A DNA stretch of 64,000 nt, from positions 124,001 to 188,000 of the forward strand of contig NZ_CAJXTC010000003.1 of the NCBI RefSeq assembly GCF_913060805.1, in the 5' to 3' direction. The stretch comes from an uncultured Draconibacterium sp. Its GTDB lineage: Bacteria; Bacteroidota; Bacteroidia; Bacteroidales; Prolixibacteraceae. Each line of letters begins with the position of its first letter. Position 1 is the first letter of the stretch. Made by a program: the position numbers and the translations under genes. Under the pieces are notes generated by a model. It was given only the letters and a program-made list of their open reading frames with translations, had not been told where the DNA came from and ran no database searches. Below are positions 1-8,395 of the stretch, piece after piece.

Positions 1-1398
1 CTTTTTAAAGGGAAAACACATTATTCAGGATTGATCGGTTTTCGCGAAATTTTGCATGTACTAAAAGCAAATGGTGTAGAGATTGACCGTATAAAAGAAC
101 GCGAGTTTTTCCTGGAAGTGTACCGTTTTATGGCTACCAAACATATCCTGAATACCATCGATTGGAGCAACTATAAAAATGATCCGAATTACTACCTGGT
201 ATTTCCACAGCCGGATATGATTAACAAAGCAGATGTACAAAAATACCAGGATGCCGAAAGCGATGACGAACGACGGAAAGTTGTTGAAGCGTACCAGTTA
301 AAAACCAATCCGCACGACGGCAAACAGAAGCTGAATAAACCTTTCTTTTACAATGAAGAGGGGCAAATAGAAATTCTGGAAGGTAGCCAGCATAAATATC
401 CGCCAATTAAACTAATTCTGGATGCCGGAACACAAAACTGCTTTGCTTTTTGCACTTACTGTTTCAGGCATGCGCAGGTTCGTGGCGATGAGGACATGTT
501 TGTGCAGCGCGATATCCGCCAGGTGCACAATTACCTGAAAAAACACAAAGAGGTTACCGACATTTTAATTACCGGGGGAGACGCGGGCTACATTTCTTTT
601 AAGCGTTTAAAAGAATACCTCACTCCAATTTTAGAAGATGAAGAGCTACTGCACATTCGCACGCTGCGGATCGGTTCACGGGCTATCACTTTTCATCCTG
701 AGCATCTGCTCACCGATCAATTCAAAGAAATTTTGGAATTACTGAAAATGACCGTTGAAAATGGTGTTCAGGTAGTTTGGATGTCGCACACATCAACACC
801 GCGTGAATTGTTGAATCCTGGAGCAATTGTTGCCATTCAGCGCCTGAAAAAATATGGCATCAAGGTGAAAAGTCAGAGTCCGATTATGAACACGATTAGT
901 TTGTATAAGGATGAAAATGGGAAAGTGGATGTGGATCGTTCGGCACAAAACTGGATCGATTTGGGAAATATTATGGCCATGGTTGGAGTCGGTTTCCATT
1001 CGATGTATTGCGCAAGGCCAACCGGCGAGCATCATCATTTTACGGCTCCATTGGCCGACATTACTAAAGTATTCAACAAAGTATATCGCAGTCTGGCGTC
1101 GATAAATCGTCCGTCGCGTTACATCACCATGACTTCCTCTGCAGGAAAGACTTCACTGATGGGAACAACTGTGATTGACGGTGAAAAAGTGTTTGTTCTC
1201 AAATTCAACGAAGCCCGGAACATGGAGTGGATGGACCGCGTATATTTTGCAGAGTACGATGAGCAGGAAAATACGATAGAAAAGTTAAAGCCATACAAGG
1301 CCGACAAATATTTCTACGAAGATGAACTGGAAGAGATTGAAGGAAGGCTGGAAGAGGCGTTAAAAAGAGAATCGTTAAAAATGGCAAGACATGATTAA
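1..1398 (+). CDS. KamA-family radical SAM/PLP aminomutase, 5' partial; predicted 2-aminoadipate 2,3-aminomutase
   Basis: The reading frame is open from base 1. The first possible start is a TTG at 31, so the true N-terminus almost certainly lies outside the window. Numbering from that TTG, the radical SAM cluster motif is Cys137-x3-Cys141-x2-Cys144 (CFAFCTYC), followed by a GGD motif near 182. Lys373 in SSAGKTS sits where lysine 2,3-aminomutase has its PLP lysine (GGGGK). The two Asp residues that bind the substrate epsilon-amino group in clostridial KamA (Asp293 and Asp330, aligned from memory) correspond here to Ala328 (next to Arg329) and Thr366, which argues against lysine as substrate. 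The gene overlaps the 3-oxoadipate CoA-transferase gene by 8 bp, in an operon with 2-aminoadipate-producing and 3-oxoadipate-consuming enzymes. I therefore infer conversion of 2-aminoadipate to 3-aminoadipate. The family call is firm; the substrate is inference. A glutamate 2,3-aminomutase is the main alternative. Confidence 0.8.
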   Translation, partial: LFKGKTHYSGLIGFREILHVLKANGVEIDRIKEREFFLEVYRFMATKHILNTIDWSNYKNDPNYYLVFPQPDMINKADVQKYQDAESDDERRKVVEAYQLKTNPHDGKQKLNKPFFYNEEGQIEILEGSQHKYPPIKLILDAGTQNCFAFCTYCFRHAQVRGDEDMFVQRDIRQVHNYLKKHKEVTDILITGGDAGYISFKRLKEYLTPILEDEELLHIRTLRIGSRAITFHPEHLLTDQFKEILELLKMTVENGVQVVWMSHTSTPRELLNPGAIVAIQRLKKYGIKVKSQSPIMNTISLYKDENGKVDVDRSAQNWIDLGNIMAMVGVGFHSMYCARPTGEHHHFTAPLADITKVFNKVYRSLASINRPSRYITMTSSAGKTSLMGTTVIDGEKVFVLKFNEARNMEWMDRVYFAEYDEQENTIEKLKPYKADKYFYEDELEEIEGRLEEALKRESLKMARHD

Positions 1399-2113
1399 CA
1401 AGATCGTGAATTCGGCAAAAGAAGCGGTTGCCGGAATTTTCGATGGAGCAACCGTAATGATCAGTGGTTTTGGTGAAGCCGGCAGCCCGGTGGAATTGAT
1501 TCACGCATTGGTCGATCAGGGAGCAAAAGACCTGACAGTGGTAAGTAACAACGCCGGAAGCGGTCATGTTGGTCTGGCAGCACTCATCGAAAACCGACAG
1601 GTGAAAAAGATTCTCTGCTCTTTTCCACGTACCGCTATTTCTGTTGTTTTTCCCGAGTTGTATCGGGCCGGCGAAATAGAATTGGAGCTGGTGCCGCAAG
1701 GGACGTTAGCTGAACGAATTCGTGCCGGAGGTGCGGGAGTTCCTGCATTTTATTCACCCACAACCGTTAACACGCCTTTGGCAGAAGGCAAAGAAATACG
1801 TGAGTTTAATGGCAGGCAATACGTGATGGAAGAAGCTATTCATGCCGATTTCGCTTTGGTAAAATGTTCAGCTGCCGATAAATACGGCAACCTCATTTAC
1901 AACAAAACAGCCCGCAATTTTGGGCCGGTTATGTGTATGGCAGCCAAAACAACAATCGTGCAGGCCAAACAAGTGGTTGAACTTGGAAGTATCGATCCTG
2001 AACATGTTGTAACACCGGGAATTTTTGTTCATCGTGTAGTAGAAATTTCCAATCCTGCAGACGAATCAAAATTGGTTGCCGAAAATGTAAAATACCATGG
2101 AATCAGACAATAA
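1391..2113 (+). CDS. pcaI: 3-oxoadipate CoA-transferase, subunit A
   Basis: This 240-residue protein is the alpha subunit of a family I CoA-transferase. It has the N-terminal GFGEAGSP glycine-rich loop, LTVVSNNAG, the GTLAERIRAGGAG segment and a late KTARNFGP motif. These resemble PcaI/CatI of the beta-ketoadipate pathway more than the acetoacetate enzyme AtoD. The expected reaction moves CoA from succinyl-CoA to 3-oxoadipate, together with subunit B. Its ATG lies inside the end of the aminomutase gene (8 bp overlap) and its 3' end overlaps subunit B by 17 bp, so the three genes are likely translationally coupled. Length is normal for a free-standing A subunit. Substrate assignment rests on motif resemblance and on the adjacent 3-oxoadipyl-CoA thiolase. 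Confidence 0.85.
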   Translation: MINKIVNSAKEAVAGIFDGATVMISGFGEAGSPVELIHALVDQGAKDLTVVSNNAGSGHVGLAALIENRQVKKILCSFPRTAISVVFPELYRAGEIELELVPQGTLAERIRAGGAGVPAFYSPTTVNTPLAEGKEIREFNGRQYVMEEAIHADFALVKCSAADKYGNLIYNKTARNFGPVMCMAAKTTIVQAKQVVELGSIDPEHVVTPGIFVHRVVEISNPADESKLVAENVKYHGIRQ

Positions 2114-2750
2114 AAATATAGGATGGAGCACCAGCGAAATGGCGCAAAAAGTTGCCATGGACATTTACGATGGTGCGTATGTAAATCTGGGAATCGGCAT
2201 TCCTGAAATGGTTGCCGGTTTTATCCCTGAAGGTCGCGAGGTGATCTATCATACCGAAAATGGATTGCTGGGTATGGGACATGTTGCTGAGATTGGTGGT
2301 GAAGATCCGGAATTAGTGAATGCCGGTAAAAAATATGTAACGGCTATTCCCGGAGCGGCTTATTTTCATCATGCCGACAGCTTTGCAATGATACGCGGCG
2401 GCCACATCGATATTTGTGTGCTCGGTGCTTACCAGGTATCGGAAGAAGGCGATCTGGCCAACTGGTCTACCGGAAATCCAAATGATATTCCTGCAGTGGG
2501 CGGTGCCATGGATTTGGTGGCCGGGGTGAAAACCATTTTCGTGATTACAAAACACACCACTAAAACCGGCGAATCGAAGATTGTAAAACAGTGCACTTAT
2601 CCTTTGACAGGGAAAAATGTGGTGAGTCGCATCTACACGAATTATGCAATAATTGATGTCAGAGATAAACAGCTTTACGTGCGGGAACTGGCTCCCGGAG
2701 TGAGTTTTGAGTTTTTGCAAAAACATACTGAAGCAACATTAAATCAGTAA
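2097..2750 (+). CDS. pcaJ: 3-oxoadipate CoA-transferase, subunit B
   Basis: This 217-residue beta subunit of a family I CoA-transferase carries the catalytic glutamate in the ENGLLGMG motif (Glu54), preceded by the VNLGIGIPE loop near residue 30. Later hallmarks are the SFAMIRGGHID and GAMDLVAG segments. With the upstream A subunit it would form the heterotetrameric enzyme that activates 3-oxoadipate to 3-oxoadipyl-CoA. The start overlaps the A subunit and the next gene begins 6 bp after the stop. No sign of truncation. Acetoacetate or another short 3-oxoacid is possible as a substrate, but the neighbouring thiolase favours 3-oxoadipate. Confidence 0.85.
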   Translation: MESDNKNIGWSTSEMAQKVAMDIYDGAYVNLGIGIPEMVAGFIPEGREVIYHTENGLLGMGHVAEIGGEDPELVNAGKKYVTAIPGAAYFHHADSFAMIRGGHIDICVLGAYQVSEEGDLANWSTGNPNDIPAVGGAMDLVAGVKTIFVITKHTTKTGESKIVKQCTYPLTGKNVVSRIYTNYAIIDVRDKQLYVRELAPGVSFEFLQKHTEATLNQ

Positions 2751-2756
2751 AAAAAG

Positions 2757-4091
2757 ATGGCTAAAAAAGAAAATAGCGAAGAAATCTATAACAAGGCGCG
2801 CCAGGTAATAAGTGGCGGTGTAAGCCGGAATACGGTTTTCCGGATGCCTTATCCGAATTATGCCAACAGTGCGTCGGGCTGTTATATTACCGATATTGAC
2901 GGTACCGTGCGCACCGATTTTGCCAATAACATGGCGGCACTAATTCATGGGCATTCGTTCCCGCCAATTGTCGATGCAGTTATTGAACAGCTAAAAAAAG
3001 GAACAGCATACACGCTTGCTTCCGAAATTGAAGTTGCTTTTGCCACTCACCTGATCGAACGCGTGCAGAGTTTTGAGCGTATTCGTTTCATGAATTCAGG
3101 CACGGAAGCAGTAATGGCCATGATTAAGGCATCGAGGGCGTTTACCGGCCGGCCAAAAATTGCAAAAGCTGAAGGTGCTTATCATGGCACTTACGATTTT
3201 GCCGAGGTCAGTCAAATGGCAGATCCATCGAACTGGGGAAAAGAAGATCGTCCCAGCAGCGTTGCGCTTGCTCACGGAACACCGCCATGTGTAACAAAGG
3301 ACGTGGTCATTTATCCATACAACAACATTGAGCGAACGTTGAATATTTTGGATAAACATGCTGAAGATATTGCCTGTGTTATCGTCGATCCGGTTCCTCA
3401 CCGCGTGGGTTTGGTACCGGGGAACAATGATTTTATTGAAGCACTTTACAGCTGGACACGTAAAAATGAGGCCTTGCTGGTTTTCGATGAGGTGGTAACT
3501 TTTCGTGTGAATTATGGCGGAGCACAGGAAAATTATAGTGTGAAACCGGATCTTACTTCGTTAGGAAAGATTATCGGTGGCGGATTTCCTGTAGGTGCTG
3601 TTGCCGGAAGAGCCGATGTGATGCAGGTGTTCGATCCGCATGAAAAGAATCTTCTGTTGCCTTATTCCGGAACGTTTTCGGCTAATCCGATAACCATGAC
3701 TGCCGGTTATCAGGCAATGAAATATTATGATGCGGAAGCGGTAAAACAGCTAAATCTACTCGCCGATGTGGCGGTTAAGCAGATTCGTGAAGCCATTAAA
3801 CTCGCAGATGTTCCGGTTTCAGTAACAGGCGCCGGTTCGATGTTTCGTATGCATCTTCGTCCCGCTCCGCCCACAACATACCGTGAGGCTTATCTGGACA
3901 AAGAAGGCAAAAAGCTGGTTAATGAATTATTGGATTTCATGTATTACAAAGAAAATACCTTGATGATCAACACCTTTTCGTGCATGCTTTCAACAGTCAT
4001 GACACAAAAGGAAATCGATCAGTTAACAGAAGGGCTACACAGGGCTTTCAAAGCACTAAAACCAAAGATTGAAAAACTAAACAAAGTATAA
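2757..4091 (+). CDS. Class III PLP aminotransferase (glutamate-1-semialdehyde aminomutase-like); predicted 3-aminoadipate aminotransferase
   Basis: This 444-residue fold type I PLP enzyme has NSGTEAVMAMIKASRAFTG (phosphate-binding region, about 113-131), AYHGTYD, the PLP-pyridine Asp244 in FDEVVTFRV and the Schiff-base Lys271 in LGKIIGGGFPVGA. It resembles glutamate-1-semialdehyde 2,1-aminomutase and the related beta-amino-acid aminotransferases. It is not a plausible hemL, because it lies between a 3-oxoadipate CoA-transferase and a 3-oxoadipyl-CoA thiolase, 6 bp and 2 bp from them. I infer that it removes the beta-amino group of 3-aminoadipate to give 3-oxoadipate. The amino acceptor (2-oxoglutarate or pyruvate) cannot be read from sequence. 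Enzyme class is secure; substrate is inference. Confidence 0.8.
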   Translation: MAKKENSEEIYNKARQVISGGVSRNTVFRMPYPNYANSASGCYITDIDGTVRTDFANNMAALIHGHSFPPIVDAVIEQLKKGTAYTLASEIEVAFATHLIERVQSFERIRFMNSGTEAVMAMIKASRAFTGRPKIAKAEGAYHGTYDFAEVSQMADPSNWGKEDRPSSVALAHGTPPCVTKDVVIYPYNNIERTLNILDKHAEDIACVIVDPVPHRVGLVPGNNDFIEALYSWTRKNEALLVFDEVVTFRVNYGGAQENYSVKPDLTSLGKIIGGGFPVGAVAGRADVMQVFDPHEKNLLLPYSGTFSANPITMTAGYQAMKYYDAEAVKQLNLLADVAVKQIREAIKLADVPVSVTGAGSMFRMHLRPAPPTTYREAYLDKEGKKLVNELLDFMYYKENTLMINTFSCMLSTVMTQKEIDQLTEGLHRAFKALKPKIEKLNKV

Positions 4092-4093
4092 CT

Positions 4094-5296
4094 ATGAATG
4101 ACGTTTTTATTTGCGATGCTATACGCACGCCGGTTGGAAAATATGGAGGTTCGCTGTCTGCGATTCGGGCAGATGATATGGCGGCCATTCCCATAAAAAC
4201 TTTGTTGGAGCGTAACAATCAGATCGTCCCGGCAGCGTTTGATGATGTGTTAATAGGATGTGCCAATCAGGCGGGAGAAGACAACCGAAATATTGCACGG
4301 ATGGCTTTGTTGCTGGCCGGAATGCCGGAATCGGTGCCCGGAGTGACGGTGAATCGTTTATGTTCTTCTGGAATGGAAGCTATTGGAATTGCAGCGCGGG
4401 CAATAAAAGCCGGTGAGGCGGAGCTGATAATTGCCGGCGGCGCCGAAAATATGTCGCGATCGCCATTGGTAATGCCAAAAGCTACACAGGCTTTTTCCCG
4501 AAATGCGGAAATCTATGATTCCACAATCGGCTGGCGTTTTGTAAATGATAAGTTTCAGGAGAAATATGGAACAGATCCGCTGATTTGCACGGCCGAAAAT
4601 CTGGCCACAGAGTTTCGGATCAGTCGGGAAGATCAGGATCTTTTTGCACACAACAGTCAGCTAAAAACGGCTGAAGCACAAAAAAACGGAGCACTGGCGA
4701 GTGAAATAATTCCGGTTTCTATACCACAACGAAAGGGAGATCCGATAATCTTTGAAAAGGATGAACACCCGAGGCTGACTTCCCTTGAAAAGCTGGCATC
4801 GTTGAATCCGGTTTACGGTCCGGGAACAACAGTAACTGCTGGTAATGCTTCCGGTATTAACGATGGTGCAGCGGCCGTAATTGTAGCTTCGGAGGCAGCA
4901 GTTAAGAAGTTCAATCTGACGCCGAAAGCCAGAATTCTGGGAACTCAGGCTGCCGGAGTGCCACCACGCACCATGGGAATTGGACCGGTACCGGCTACCA
5001 ATAAGCTTTTGAAACGACTGGCAATGACTTTGGATCAGATGGATATTATTGAATTAAATGAAGCATTTGCAGCTCAATCGCTGGCTTGCATCCGTGAGTT
5101 TGGAATGGCAGACGACGATCCCCGATTGAATCCGCTTGGCGGAGCAATTGCACTCGGTCATCCGCTGGGAATGTCAGGAGCACGTTTAGTTACAACAGCA
5201 ATTTACCAGCTGCAGAATTCAAACTCAAAATACGCGCTTTGTACCATGTGTGTTGGCGTTGGTCAGGGAGTTTCAATAATCCTGGAAAAAGCTTAA
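4094..5296 (+). CDS. pcaF: 3-oxoadipyl-CoA thiolase
   Basis: This 400-residue thiolase has nucleophile Cys90 in VNRLCSSGMEAIG, His356 in GGAIALGHPLGMSGAR and the second active-site Cys386 in CTMCVGVGQG. The stretch with AFSRNAEIYDSTIGWRFVN (about 135-155) closely resembles PcaF/PaaJ 3-oxoadipyl-CoA thiolases and differs from AtoB-type acetoacetyl-CoA thiolases. The reaction would be 3-oxoadipyl-CoA + CoA -> succinyl-CoA + acetyl-CoA. It starts 2 bp after the aminotransferase stop and ends the first tight run of the operon, before a 141-bp spacer that contains a dispersed repeat. Confidence 0.87.
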   Translation: MNDVFICDAIRTPVGKYGGSLSAIRADDMAAIPIKTLLERNNQIVPAAFDDVLIGCANQAGEDNRNIARMALLLAGMPESVPGVTVNRLCSSGMEAIGIAARAIKAGEAELIIAGGAENMSRSPLVMPKATQAFSRNAEIYDSTIGWRFVNDKFQEKYGTDPLICTAENLATEFRISREDQDLFAHNSQLKTAEAQKNGALASEIIPVSIPQRKGDPIIFEKDEHPRLTSLEKLASLNPVYGPGTTVTAGNASGINDGAAAVIVASEAAVKKFNLTPKARILGTQAAGVPPRTMGIGPVPATNKLLKRLAMTLDQMDIIELNEAFAAQSLACIREFGMADDDPRLNPLGGAIALGHPLGMSGARLVTTAIYQLQNSNSKYALCTMCVGVGQGVSIILEKA

Positions 5297-5335
5297 AAAA
5301 CGTGCGAATGAAGCTTATGATATTATAAAACGTAT

Positions 5336-5394
5336 GACCCCTCCGGCCTCCCCAAAGGGGAGGAGAAGTTCCCCCTGGGGGGATTTAGGGGGTC
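5336..5394. repeat. Dispersed GACCCC...GGGGTC intergenic repeat, copy 1
   Basis: A 59-bp element bounded by GACCCC and GGGGTC contains two internal GC hairpins (CTCCCC/GGGGAG and TCCCCC/GGGGGA). A second copy in the same orientation lies at 23056-23116, and a diverged relative at 42287-42327. It sits between the thiolase and aldehyde dehydrogenase genes and may attenuate or stabilise the operon transcript. Similar CCCCTTTGGGG elements are common between genes in Bacteroidota genomes (general knowledge). Confidence 0.75.
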
Positions 5395-5437
5395 AATAAG
5401 AAGAGGAAATATTTACGAAAAACATAAAAATACTACA

Positions 5438-6979
5438 ATGAAAATTGACATCTCAAAAGAATTAAAACAGTTAGGAATTAATGAAGTTAATAATGGTGTT
5501 TGCACCGGAACAGAATGGAAAACAACGTCCGGTGCAGCAGTTGAATCGTTTTCGCCATCGGATGGCGAATTGATTGCAACCGTAAATCAGGCAACAGCAG
5601 CCGATTATCACGAGGTCGTTGAAAAAGCGAAAGACGCTTTTAAAGTCTGGCGAATGGTGCCGGCTCCGAAACGTGGCGAGATTGTGCGCCAGATTGGGTT
5701 AGAACTTCGTAAATATAAGGAGCCACTCGGAAAACTTGTTTCGTACGAAATGGGTAAAATTTATCAGGAAGGTCTTGGCGAGGTGCAGGAAATGATTGAT
5801 ATCTGCGATTTTGCTGTTGGCCAGTCGCGTCAGTTATATGGTTTCACCATGCATTCGGAACGGGAAAAGCACCGCATGTACGACCAGTATCATCCGCTGG
5901 GAATTGTGGGTGTGGTTTCGGCCTTTAACTTCCCGGTTGCTGTTTGGGCGTGGAACGCAATGATTGCTTTGGTGGCTGGCGATGTCGTTATCTGGAAACC
6001 ATCGTCAAAAGTGTTTTTATGTGCCATTGCGGTACACAACATTGTTGCCAAAGTTTTGCAAGAAAACGATGTTCCTGAAGGAGTTTTGAACCTCGTTGCT
6101 GCCGGCTCAAAAGAATTGGGCGACGAGTTTTTCAGCGACAAAAATATACCGTTGGTGTCGTTTACCGGCTCAACAAAAATTGGGAAGAAAGTTGGCAGTC
6201 TTGTCGGTCAGCGTTTGGGAAAAACCATTCTGGAACTTGGTGGAAACAATGCTATAATAATCACTCCTGAAGCCGATCTGGAAATGGCACTTCGTGCGGT
6301 TGTTTTTGGTGCAGTTGGTACTTGCGGTCAGCGTTGCACTTCCACACGCCGCATTATCGTTCACGATTCGGTTTACGAAGATTTCAAAAACCGTTTGATT
6401 GCCATTTACGAGCAATTGCCAATTGGTCATGCTTTGGATGAAAAAACACTGGTGGGTCCGCTGGTTGATCGTTGGGCGGTGGATACTTATTTGGCCGCCA
6501 TTGAAAAGGTAAAAGCTGAAGGTGGAAATCTCCTGATTGGCGGAGAAGTGCTGTCGGGAGAAGGTTACGAGTCGGGTTGTTTTGTAACGCCGAGTATCGC
6601 CGAAGTGGAAAATCATTATGAAATCGTTCAGGATGAAACTTTTGCTCCACTGCTTTATATGCTCAGGTATTCGGAACTCGAGGAAGCCATTCGTTTGCAC
6701 AACGATGTGCCACAGGGATTGTCGTCGGCAATTTTCTCAACGCACATGTTGGAAACCGAGAAATTCCTGTCTCATGAGGGCTCGGATTGTGGAATTGCCA
6801 ACGTAAATATTGGAACGTCGGGTGCCGAAATTGGAGGTGCTTTTGGTGGTGAAAAAGAAACAGGTGGTGGTCGCGAGTCAGGTTCCGATGCCTGGAAAGC
6901 CTACATGCGCCGCCAAACAAATACAATAAATTACAGTACAGAGCTTCCGTTGGCTCAGGGAATTGAGTTTAATGTGTAG
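5438..6979 (+). CDS. ALDH7-type aldehyde dehydrogenase; predicted 2-aminoadipate 6-semialdehyde dehydrogenase
   Basis: This 513-residue NAD(P)-dependent aldehyde dehydrogenase has Asn164 (SAFNFP), the cofactor-binding Lys187 (WKPSS), general base Glu266 (LELGGNN) and catalytic Cys300 (CGQRCTSTRR). The CTSTRR context, SFTGSTKIGKKVG and the overall length match the antiquitin/ALDH7A1 group, which oxidises alpha-aminoadipate semialdehyde in lysine breakdown. It is encoded just upstream of a saccharopine dehydrogenase, the enzyme that makes this aldehyde. The product, 2-aminoadipate, is the predicted substrate of the aminomutase at the start of the operon. A 141-bp spacer with a repeat precedes it. 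Confidence 0.85.
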   Translation: MKIDISKELKQLGINEVNNGVCTGTEWKTTSGAAVESFSPSDGELIATVNQATAADYHEVVEKAKDAFKVWRMVPAPKRGEIVRQIGLELRKYKEPLGKLVSYEMGKIYQEGLGEVQEMIDICDFAVGQSRQLYGFTMHSEREKHRMYDQYHPLGIVGVVSAFNFPVAVWAWNAMIALVAGDVVIWKPSSKVFLCAIAVHNIVAKVLQENDVPEGVLNLVAAGSKELGDEFFSDKNIPLVSFTGSTKIGKKVGSLVGQRLGKTILELGGNNAIIITPEADLEMALRAVVFGAVGTCGQRCTSTRRIIVHDSVYEDFKNRLIAIYEQLPIGHALDEKTLVGPLVDRWAVDTYLAAIEKVKAEGGNLLIGGEVLSGEGYESGCFVTPSIAEVENHYEIVQDETFAPLLYMLRYSELEEAIRLHNDVPQGLSSAIFSTHMLETEKFLSHEGSDCGIANVNIGTSGAEIGGAFGGEKETGGGRESGSDAWKAYMRRQTNTINYSTELPLAQGIEFNV

Positions 6980-6987
6980 TAATATAG

Positions 6988-7024
6988 TTAGTGATACCCT
7001 TACTCAGAGTGAGGGTATCACTAA
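6988..7024 (+). other. Near-perfect inverted repeat between aldehyde dehydrogenase and saccharopine dehydrogenase genes
   Basis: The arms TTAGTGATACCCTTAC and GTGAGGGTATCACTAA pair across a 5-base loop with a single G-U wobble, and end 21 bases before the next ATG. The element is followed by A residues rather than a T tract on the plus strand, so it is more likely an mRNA hairpin, or a terminator for minus-strand transcription, than a plus-strand terminator. Confidence 0.6.
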
Positions 7025-7045
7025 AAAAGGAATTAGCGAAAAACT

Positions 7046-8395
7046 ATGAAAAACATATTAATTTTTGGAGCCGGTAGGTCGAGCGTATTTTTGCTCACCT
7101 ACCTGGCCGAACGTGCGGCAAAATATCACTGGCACATAAAAGTTGTTGACGCCGAAGAAAGTGATCTGGCAAAAGCGTTAAAATTGCCTTTTTCCATTTT
7201 AAATGTGCGCGATGAATTTGCCCGAGACCAGGAAGTTCGTGCTGCCGATCTGGTAATTTCCATGTTGCCGGCGCGCTTTCATAAACTGGTGATGCAATCA
7301 TGTCTGAAATTCTCGAAAAGCTTGTTTACCGCTTCGTACGAAAGAAAAGAAATACAACAGGTTGAAGAGGAAGTGAAAAGTAAAGGCTTATTGTTTTTGA
7401 ATGAATGTGGTTTAGATCCCGGATTGGATCACATGTCGGCTATGCGCGTGATCAACGAAATAAAACAGGAAGGCCATCAGTTGGAGGCTTTTGAATCGTT
7501 TACAGGTGGTTTGGTAGCACCCGAATCGGATGATAATCCGTGGCATTACAAATTTAGTTGGAATCCGCGAAATGTAGTGTTGGCCGGTCAGGGCGGACCT
7601 GCAAAGTTTATTCAGAAAGGAAAGGTGAAATACATTCCTTACAACCGATTATTTCGCAGAACTGAGTTGATTGAGATTGATGAATACGGCTGGTTTGAAG
7701 GTTATGCGAACCGCGATTCGATGAGTTATATCGAAAAATATGGATTGCAGGAAGTTCCCACAGTTTTTAGAGGAACTTTGCGGCGCCCGGGTTTTTGTAA
7801 GGCGTGGAATGTATTTGTGCAATTGGGAGCTACCAGTGACGAGTACTACATTGACAATGTGGAAGACATGACTTACCGCGAGTTTATCAACTCCTTTTTG
7901 TATTACCATCCTGCTACGGTCGATCTGAAATTGTATCATTCAATGCAAATTCCGATGGACTCGGAGATCATTCCAAAGCTGGAGTGGTTAGGTATTTTTG
8001 AGAACCGGAAAATAGGTTTAAAACGCGCCACTCCTGCCCAGGTAATGGAAAAGTTGCTTTCGGAAAAATGGCAGTTGATGCCTGAAGACAAAGATATGGT
8101 TGTGATGTGGCACAAGTTTGAATACCTGGATCGCGACACTAAGGAGAAAGTGGAGAAGAACAGTTCGTTGGTGGTTATTGGCGAATCGGGAGAAAAAACA
8201 GCCATGGCAAAAACAGTTGGTTTGCCGCTTGCCGTTGCAGCAAAATTGTTTCTTACCGACAAATTAAACCACTGCGGAATTTATATACCAACGCATCCCG
8301 ATATCTACGAACCCATTTTAGATGAACTGGAAGATTTTGGAATAAAATTCACCGAAACGGAGAAAGGGTTGGTAGGTCAGGGAAATGTGGTTTAA
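7046..8395 (+). CDS. Saccharopine dehydrogenase (L-glutamate-forming, Lys9 type)
   Basis: This 449-residue protein starts with a Rossmann dinucleotide fold (ILIFGAGRSS, residues 4-13). It then has the Lys9-type substrate domain with NECGLDPGLDHMSA, TGGLVAPESDDNPWHYKFSW, YANRDS and TVFRGTLRRPGF. In the family these segments bind saccharopine and the enzyme yields 2-aminoadipate semialdehyde and glutamate. The C-terminal segment AMAKTVGLPLAVAAK is also typical. No saccharopine-forming lysine-ketoglutarate reductase lies in the window; it may be upstream of base 1 or elsewhere. It ends the plus-strand operon and converges with the next gene. Confidence 0.88.
   Translation: MKNILIFGAGRSSVFLLTYLAERAAKYHWHIKVVDAEESDLAKALKLPFSILNVRDEFARDQEVRAADLVISMLPARFHKLVMQSCLKFSKSLFTASYERKEIQQVEEEVKSKGLLFLNECGLDPGLDHMSAMRVINEIKQEGHQLEAFESFTGGLVAPESDDNPWHYKFSWNPRNVVLAGQGGPAKFIQKGKVKYIPYNRLFRRTELIEIDEYGWFEGYANRDSMSYIEKYGLQEVPTVFRGTLRRPGFCKAWNVFVQLGATSDEYYIDNVEDMTYREFINSFLYYHPATVDLKLYHSMQIPMDSEIIPKLEWLGIFENRKIGLKRATPAQVMEKLLSEKWQLMPEDKDMVVMWHKFEYLDRDTKEKVEKNSSLVVIGESGEKTAMAKTVGLPLAVAAKLFLTDKLNHCGIYIPTHPDIYEPILDELEDFGIKFTETEKGLVGQGNVV

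Follow-up and report, generated by a model that had tools for sequence, protein, structure and literature searches.

The subject of this report is a run of seven genes at the beginning of a 64,000-nucleotide (nt) stretch of DNA (the window; G000:C3:124001-188000) within a 5.48 Mb assembly from an uncultured Draconibacterium species, which is predicted to encode the last part of a route for lysine catabolism. Open reading frame (ORF) calling and family searches reveal that seven ORFs on the + strand fill window positions 1-8395 (Table 1). In gene order, they match the Pfam families radical S-adenosylmethionine (SAM)/KamA-like, CoA_trans (twice), Aminotran_3, Thiolase_N/C, Aldedh and Sacchrp_dh_C. 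The aminomutase and PcaI genes overlap by 8 nt and those for PcaI and PcaJ by 17 nt, and the gaps that follow measure 6 nt (PcaJ to aminotransferase), 2 nt (to PcaF), 141 nt (to the ALDH7-type gene) and 66 nt (to the Lys9-type gene). These ORFs, families and spacings agree with a preliminary description of this DNA, which had reported one gene run containing all seven families with the first five genes overlapping or a few bases apart. The aminomutase gene is likewise present where that description had placed it, but the window edge cuts the gene, and the complete ORF of 522 amino acids (aa) starts 170 nt farther upstream (L005:10830-12398). A second Lys9-type gene (443 aa), whose product shares 36% identity with that of the window copy, is located upstream in divergent orientation. 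No NCBIfam model matches the Lys9-type protein of the window at E 0.001.

Table 1. Genes filling window positions 1-8395 and the evidence for their assignment.
Product	Position	Strand	Evidence or extent
Divergent KamA-family radical SAM/pyridoxal 5'-phosphate (PLP) aminomutase, predicted L-2-aminoadipate 2,3-aminomutase	1..1398	+	465 of 522 codons inside the window
PcaI-like 3-oxoacid CoA-transferase subunit A	1391..2113	+	TIGR02429 (pcaI_scoA_fam) 365.5 bits, cut-off 128.5; subfamily model, not 3-oxoadipate-specific
PcaJ-like 3-oxoacid CoA-transferase subunit B	2097..2750	+	TIGR02428 (pcaJ_scoB_fam) 299 bits, cut-off 243.55
Class III aminotransferase, beta-amino-acid transaminase / glutamate-1-semialdehyde aminomutase branch, predicted 3-aminoadipate aminotransferase	2757..4091	+	6k8h, E 8e-108
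PcaF, 3-oxoadipyl-CoA thiolase	4094..5296	+	TIGR02430 650.7 bits, equivalog cut-off 597
ALDH7-type L-piperideine-6-carboxylate / 2-aminoadipate semialdehyde dehydrogenase	5438..6979	+	NF050084 803.1 bits, equivalog cut-off 730
Lys9-type saccharopine dehydrogenase (L-glutamate-forming)	7046..8395	+	Sacchrp_dh_C E 8.1e-79; 1e5l (saccharopine reductase) E 1.6e-64

The first five of these genes constitute a conserved core. A contig scan with an alignment of 11 aminomutase orthologues gave 323 pattern matches, of which at least 304 encode relatives, and the best 80 were retained for the locus and pocket counts given below. In 60 of the 80 loci, the sequence continues downstream of the aminomutase gene for 4.2 kb or more, which makes them testable for the complete core; the remaining 20 are shorter and contain as much of the core as fits. 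Genes for the aminomutase, PcaI, PcaJ, the aminotransferase and PcaF occur in the same order and on the same strand in 59 of the 60 testable loci, with L131 as the sole exception because it lacks PcaF despite having room for this gene. This five-gene core is a conserved module beyond what chance would produce, and the concern raised in the preliminary description that these genes might rarely be found together in other genomes is not borne out. Record titles, which mostly denote metagenome bins, label the core loci as Bacteroidales, Ignavibacteria, Chlorobiaceae, Balneolales, Acidobacteria, Desulfuromonadales, other Deltaproteobacteria, Cloacimonadota, Edwardsbacteria and Elusimicrobia (the contig of the latter stops within PcaI). 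The closest named relatives are Draconibacterium species, whose aminomutases share 92-93% identity with that of the window (L054, L055 and L089). Among 149 genomes sampled from the order, the long aminomutase orthologue is found at E 1e-100 in 12, including one in which it is fragmentary.

By its family scores, the window aminomutase is a relative that falls outside the curated TIGR00238 subfamily, given that its 465 window residues reach 82.3 bits where the cut-off is 199.2. The models for lysine 2,3-aminomutase (LAM; TIGR03820, 62.7 bits versus a cut-off of 525.4) and glutamate 2,3-aminomutase (TIGR04368, 59.2 versus 650) are not reached either, and every NCBIfam aminomutase model that the protein matches scores below its cut-off. 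Foldseek matches assign it the LAM fold, in a structure list that excludes no other family. The three cysteines of the CX3CX2C cluster motif (C204, C208 and C211) are present in 80/80 aminomutases, as are K440 and R213, which occupy LAM positions in an alignment with the genome's own LAM. We take these two residues to be the PLP-binding lysine and the carboxylate-binding arginine, respectively, as in LAM. The distinctive positions are the two Asp residues of LAM that presumably bind the epsilon-amino group of the substrate. In the MAFFT alignment, the first of these is matched by Arg in 80/80 aminomutases, and the second corresponds to Thr or Ser in all 80. Lysine and glutamate were rejected as substrates on the basis of the family scores and these pocket residues. 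The Asp-to-Arg and Asp-to-Thr/Ser changes, together with the flanking genes and the rarity of two aromatic routes described below, support 2-aminoadipate as the predicted substrate.

A shorter, sister family of KamA-like proteins shares 32-37% identity with the long aminomutase and has a copy in this genome (G000:C28:53017-54195; L041:8999-10294, - strand). In a sample of 296 genomes from the phylum, 29 have a match at E 1e-60, yet the long orthologue is found in only two of them (the window's genome and G070). The matches in the other 27 genomes, and a second match in each of these two, belong to the shorter family, which is represented in 28 of the 295 other sampled Bacteroidota genomes (relatives L012-L039). 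All 13 members examined have Arg at the first Asp position, and at the second they have Ser except for one Val. Around the short gene at 17 loci, in 16 of which it was called, recurrence is limited to two other gene families, one found in 5 loci and the other in 3. Examined in case it shared the module context, the short family proved to have no strongly conserved neighbours and so offers no functional clue. Another KamA-like radical SAM stretch occurs in a 737-aa open frame (L010; match at G000:C21:31279-31695).

The solved chain nearest to the aminotransferase is 6k8h, which we take to be the Sphaerobacter thermophilus enzyme, followed by ForI and glutamate-1-semialdehyde aminomutases, and the beta-transaminases 2yku and 4ao9 match as well. 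We do not call the protein HemL because its score with the hemL model (TIGR00713; 333.3 bits) is below the equivalog cut-off of 527.3. The arginine of its GGxSR motif (R24) is present in 65/65 orthologues and aligns with the arginine in the corresponding 6k8h motif, GGNTR. Published work on beta-transaminases indicates that R41 of their motif (R40 in VboTA) binds the substrate carboxylate (PMC9850050). In our reading, R24 would be the counterpart of R41. Arg29, which is found in 55 of the 65 orthologues and is replaced by Ser in 6k8h, is a candidate for binding a second carboxylate. Regarding the thiolase, 10/10 chosen orthologues pass the PcaF equivalog cut-off, with scores of 642.6 to 683.6 bits.

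Genes predicted to convert lysine to 2-aminoadipate are found next to the core in several settings. According to ORF clustering, the commonest neighbours after the core families are ALDH7 and the saccharopine dehydrogenase (SDH) family, each in 14 of the 80 loci, and the next cluster is found in nine. Ten of the 14 ALDH7-linked loci are Prolixibacteraceae-like, so these are not 14 independent events, and we count three lineages in which lysine-to-2-aminoadipate genes are linked to the core separately. In the Prolixibacteraceae-like loci, ALDH7 and Lys9-type genes are located after PcaF. The Cloacimonadota locus L114 carries genes for SDH, lysine-ketoglutarate reductase (LKR), the aminomutase, PcaI, PcaJ, the aminotransferase and PcaF in succession on one strand, and in L117, SDH and LKR genes lie upstream of the core with one ORF in between. 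ALDH7 is also near the core in loci labelled Deltaproteobacteria, Desulfuromusa or Desulfuromonadales (L109, L118, L119 and L132). L118 further encodes a Sacchrp_dh-family protein whose best solved match is 3abi, and L132 encodes a 63% relative of it; the structure table names 3abi an uncharacterised protein, which we assume to be a lysine dehydrogenase. Genes for SBP_bac_3 amino-acid binding proteins are located near the core in L109 and L118, and downstream in L109 is an ornithine/acetylornithine-type class III aminotransferase that scores under the cut-off for each of the best 25 of 62 models. Of the aminomutase, class III aminotransferase and saccharopine dehydrogenase, whose co-occurrence the preliminary description proposed to check, the first two are core genes, and SDH-type genes are linked to the core only in the 14 loci counted above. 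A review notes both that the saccharopine pathway yields alpha-aminoadipate and that some bacteria oxidise lysine straight to its semialdehyde (PMC7253579). Among the Cloacimonadota loci, L114 contains a large gene of the amino-acid-permease/SLC12 transporter family after PcaF (L114:15544-17757), with a similar-looking ORF at L117:10718-12946, and this transporter could import lysine. L117 also encodes a 374-aa Sacchrp_dh-family protein (L117:12990-14114) besides its SDH.

The window's genome encodes both LKR and SDH of the saccharopine pathway, with LKR on another contig (G000:C33:20126-21331; best solved matches 8dda, 8e8u and 8e8t, chains of mitochondrial alpha-aminoadipic semialdehyde synthase, AASS). 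The predicted pathway is not self-contained in the window, given that LKR is encoded elsewhere. In the order sample, 11 of the 12 genomes with the module have LKR, as do 72 of the 137 without it (p 0.007 in a one-sided Fisher test, uncorrected for kinship), and 36 of the 39 genomes with ALDH7 also have LKR. Among 50 of the 80 named module genomes, whose completeness is not given, LKR is found in 36, ALDH7 in 32 and at least one of the two in 46. When 14 LKR surroundings in module genomes were inspected (in one of which LKR itself was missed by gene calling), an SDH-type gene was found a few ORFs away in 11, ALDH7 adjoined in one and neither was present in one. Two LKR types can be distinguished in the order sample, one of about 400 aa with mostly 42-58% identity to the LKR of the window's genome and one of about 440 aa with about 33-39%. 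The longer type is carried by 9 of the 11 LKR-bearing module genomes.

Two aromatic routes to 3-oxoadipate are rare in genomes with the module. Intradiol dioxygenase (PF00775) has no match in the window's genome; of 51 module genomes, two contain a match over the cut-off and three contain one at E 0.001. PaaA/PaaC (PF05138) likewise has no match in the window's genome and is over the cut-off in 1 of 51, with other aromatic routes not searched. An aromatic origin of 3-oxoadipate via intradiol cleavage or phenylacetate was rejected on these counts. Given this rarity, the enzymes acting on 3-oxoadipate apparently depend on a substrate of different origin, which the aminomutase and aminotransferase would provide. 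The window's genome also encodes a true LAM (L149:6776-8921; G000:C40). An ORF that overlaps it downstream resembles a beta-lysine acetyltransferase, suggesting that N-epsilon-acetyl-beta-lysine may be an osmolyte in this bacterium.

On the basis of these characteristics, we judge it very probable that the cluster encodes the last part of lysine catabolism, in which lysine is converted via 2-aminoadipate, 3-aminoadipate and 3-oxoadipate to acetyl-CoA and succinyl-CoA. LKR would join lysine and 2-oxoglutarate to form saccharopine, which the Lys9-type enzyme would split into glutamate and 2-aminoadipate semialdehyde (piperideine-6-carboxylate when cyclised), and the ALDH7-type enzyme would oxidise the semialdehyde to L-2-aminoadipate. 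The aminomutase is then predicted to move the amino group from C2 to C3 by means of a SAM-derived radical and PLP, as in LAM, and the resulting 3-aminoadipate would be converted by the class III aminotransferase to 3-oxoadipate, with the amino group leaving as glutamate. PcaIJ would spend succinyl-CoA to produce 3-oxoadipyl-CoA, from which PcaF and CoA would yield acetyl-CoA and succinyl-CoA. We infer all substrates and the direction of flux in this scheme. Its central proposal, already made in the preliminary description, is that the aminomutase and aminotransferase bridge 2-aminoadipate to 3-oxoadipate, and it gains support from the pocket replacements, the flanking genes of the LKR, SDH, ALDH7 and lysine dehydrogenase-like types and the rarity of the aromatic routes. 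By bookkeeping, all six lysine carbons would be kept, and no step would need oxygen, 2-oxoadipate dehydrogenase or glutaryl-CoA dehydrogenase. The core may function as a portable module leading from 2-aminoadipate to central metabolism. In other bacteria, it would be fed by LKR and SDH or by an enzyme resembling lysine 6-dehydrogenase, and a lysine aminotransferase may be a further feeder. It is probable, if somewhat less so than the pathway itself, that different lineages have joined this transferable core to different lysine-oxidising front ends.

The proposed route shares parts with several known systems. Compared with LAM (KamA, AblA; PDB 2a5h), the window aminomutase has only about 19% identity to the genome's own representative, is longer at its N-terminus, replaces the Asp pair and resides in another operon context. 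It likely has an omega-carboxylate substrate in common with glutamate 2,3-aminomutase, in which the pocket charge is changed in the same manner, yet it is far from the model of that enzyme. The saccharopine pathway, comprising LKR, SDH and 2-aminoadipate semialdehyde dehydrogenase (AASADH), has its counterparts in this genome in LKR, the two SDH-type genes and the ALDH7-type dehydrogenase, but the predicted fate of 2-aminoadipate here is 3-aminoadipate instead of 2-oxoadipate and glutaryl-CoA. With the lower beta-ketoadipate pathway, the predicted last two steps (PcaIJ and the PcaF equivalog) are shared, whereas 3-oxoadipate would here come from an amino acid. The order of chemistry, from beta-amino acid through beta-keto acid and CoA ester to thiolysis, also resembles the oxidative degradation of beta-lysine by Pseudomonas, although the substrate there is acetylated beta-lysine and not a dicarboxylic beta-amino acid.

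Gene presence, gene families, conserved order, neighbours and pocket substitutions are direct observations. Several findings weigh against the proposed pathway. The hhalign program sets the first LAM Asp opposite Ala395, one residue off the Arg396 indicated by MAFFT. We followed the MAFFT mapping because the short KamA-like family bridges both sequences without gaps. That family has the same Arg, so this residue alone does not name the substrate. The best model for the aminotransferase is hemL, albeit under its cut-off, and the NCBIfam models do not separate PcaIJ from ScoAB, both subfamily models being passed. Linkage of SDH-type and ALDH7 genes to the core is confined to just the 14 loci each, and LKR is frequent in the order sample regardless of the module (83 of 149 genomes), its association with the module being uncorrected for kinship. 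Among the 50 named module genomes counted above, 14 have no LKR (ten of these 14 have ALDH7), 18 give no ALDH7 match at E 1e-150 and 4 lack both. ALDH7 is not enriched with the module in the order sample either, being found in 3 of the 12 genomes that have the module and in 36 of the 137 that lack it, and its co-occurrence was rejected as a pathway marker. Where ALDH7 is missing, another oxidoreductase would therefore have to act at the semialdehyde step, or the scheme differs. Finally, the window's genome encodes a homologue of the HGLS-type 2-oxoadipate dioxygenase/decarboxylase (L041:6261-7184 on G000:C28; PF07063, 113 bits), at a distance of about 2 kb from the gene for the short KamA-like protein, and this enzyme offers a possible rival fate for 2-aminoadipate.

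Other explanations account for parts of the same evidence. A glutamate 2,3-aminomutase could form beta-glutamate, from which transamination would give 3-oxoglutarate; once activated, this would be split into acetyl-CoA and malonyl-CoA. An Arg in place of the first amino-binding Asp suits any omega-carboxylate, and the characterised glutamate enzyme has Lys and Asn at the two Asp positions. However, the TIGR04368 score is far too low, the thiolases of the window and of all ten chosen orthologues pass the PcaF model, and lysine-to-2-aminoadipate genes are the commonest non-core neighbours, which together make this route quite unlikely. Membership of the KamA superfamily and the LAM fold are equally what would be expected if beta-lysine or its acetyl derivative were degraded to acetyl-CoA and a 4-aminobutyryl compound, as in a beta-lysine-degrading Pseudomonas, and the order of aminomutase, aminotransferase, CoA-transferase and thiolase would fit too. 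Given that the amino-binding Asp pair is lost, that TIGR03820 is not reached, that a separate true LAM is followed by an acetyltransferase-looking gene and that the thiolase passes the PcaF model, we consider such a beta-lysine route extremely doubtful.

PcaI, PcaJ and PcaF, whose families are all present, are the classical end enzymes of aromatic degradation via beta-ketoadipate. The run might contain a remnant of that pathway, with the aminomutase and aminotransferase as neighbours that have another job. The scarcity of intradiol dioxygenase and PaaA/PaaC, which represent the two aromatic routes searched, and the occurrence of the five genes together in nearly every testable locus, leave this explanation with next to negligible probability. 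The pathway might instead operate in the direction of synthesis: acetyl-CoA and succinyl-CoA would be condensed and turned into 3-aminoadipate and 2-aminoadipate, providing the cell with 2-aminoadipate, pipecolate or lysine. In principle, the aminomutase, aminotransferase and CoA-transferase can each catalyse the reverse reaction, but condensation by the thiolase is energetically unfavourable and the SBP_bac_3 amino-acid uptake genes near the core in two loci fit catabolism, and thus we regard synthesis as very unlikely.

Two of the intergenic regions within the run have additional features. Between the ALDH7-type and Lys9-type genes, a near-perfect 18-bp palindrome (window 6988-7024; fold -25.3 kcal/mol, z -7.2) is not followed by a T run and is possibly an mRNA-processing or attenuation element. 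The gap between the PcaF and ALDH7-type genes includes a G+C-rich stretch unlike its surroundings (window 5335-5398), of which a 27-base piece has no second copy in the window, and no inverted repeats of at least 12 were found within it.

We found no description of this lysine route in the CC-licensed PMC literature, with subscription literature and pathway databases outside the search. The enzyme families and the upper and lower halves of the pathway are known; the link between the halves and the substrate of the aminomutase appear to be new. If the proposed pathway is correct, it would provide an annotation for a family of proteins whose relatives account for at least 304 of the 323 pattern matches. 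It would also offer enzymes with which lysine could be turned into 3-aminoadipate or 3-oxoadipate. For the organisms that carry the module, lysine carbon would be retained completely as succinate and acetyl-CoA, which would be relevant to the degradation of protein under anoxic conditions.

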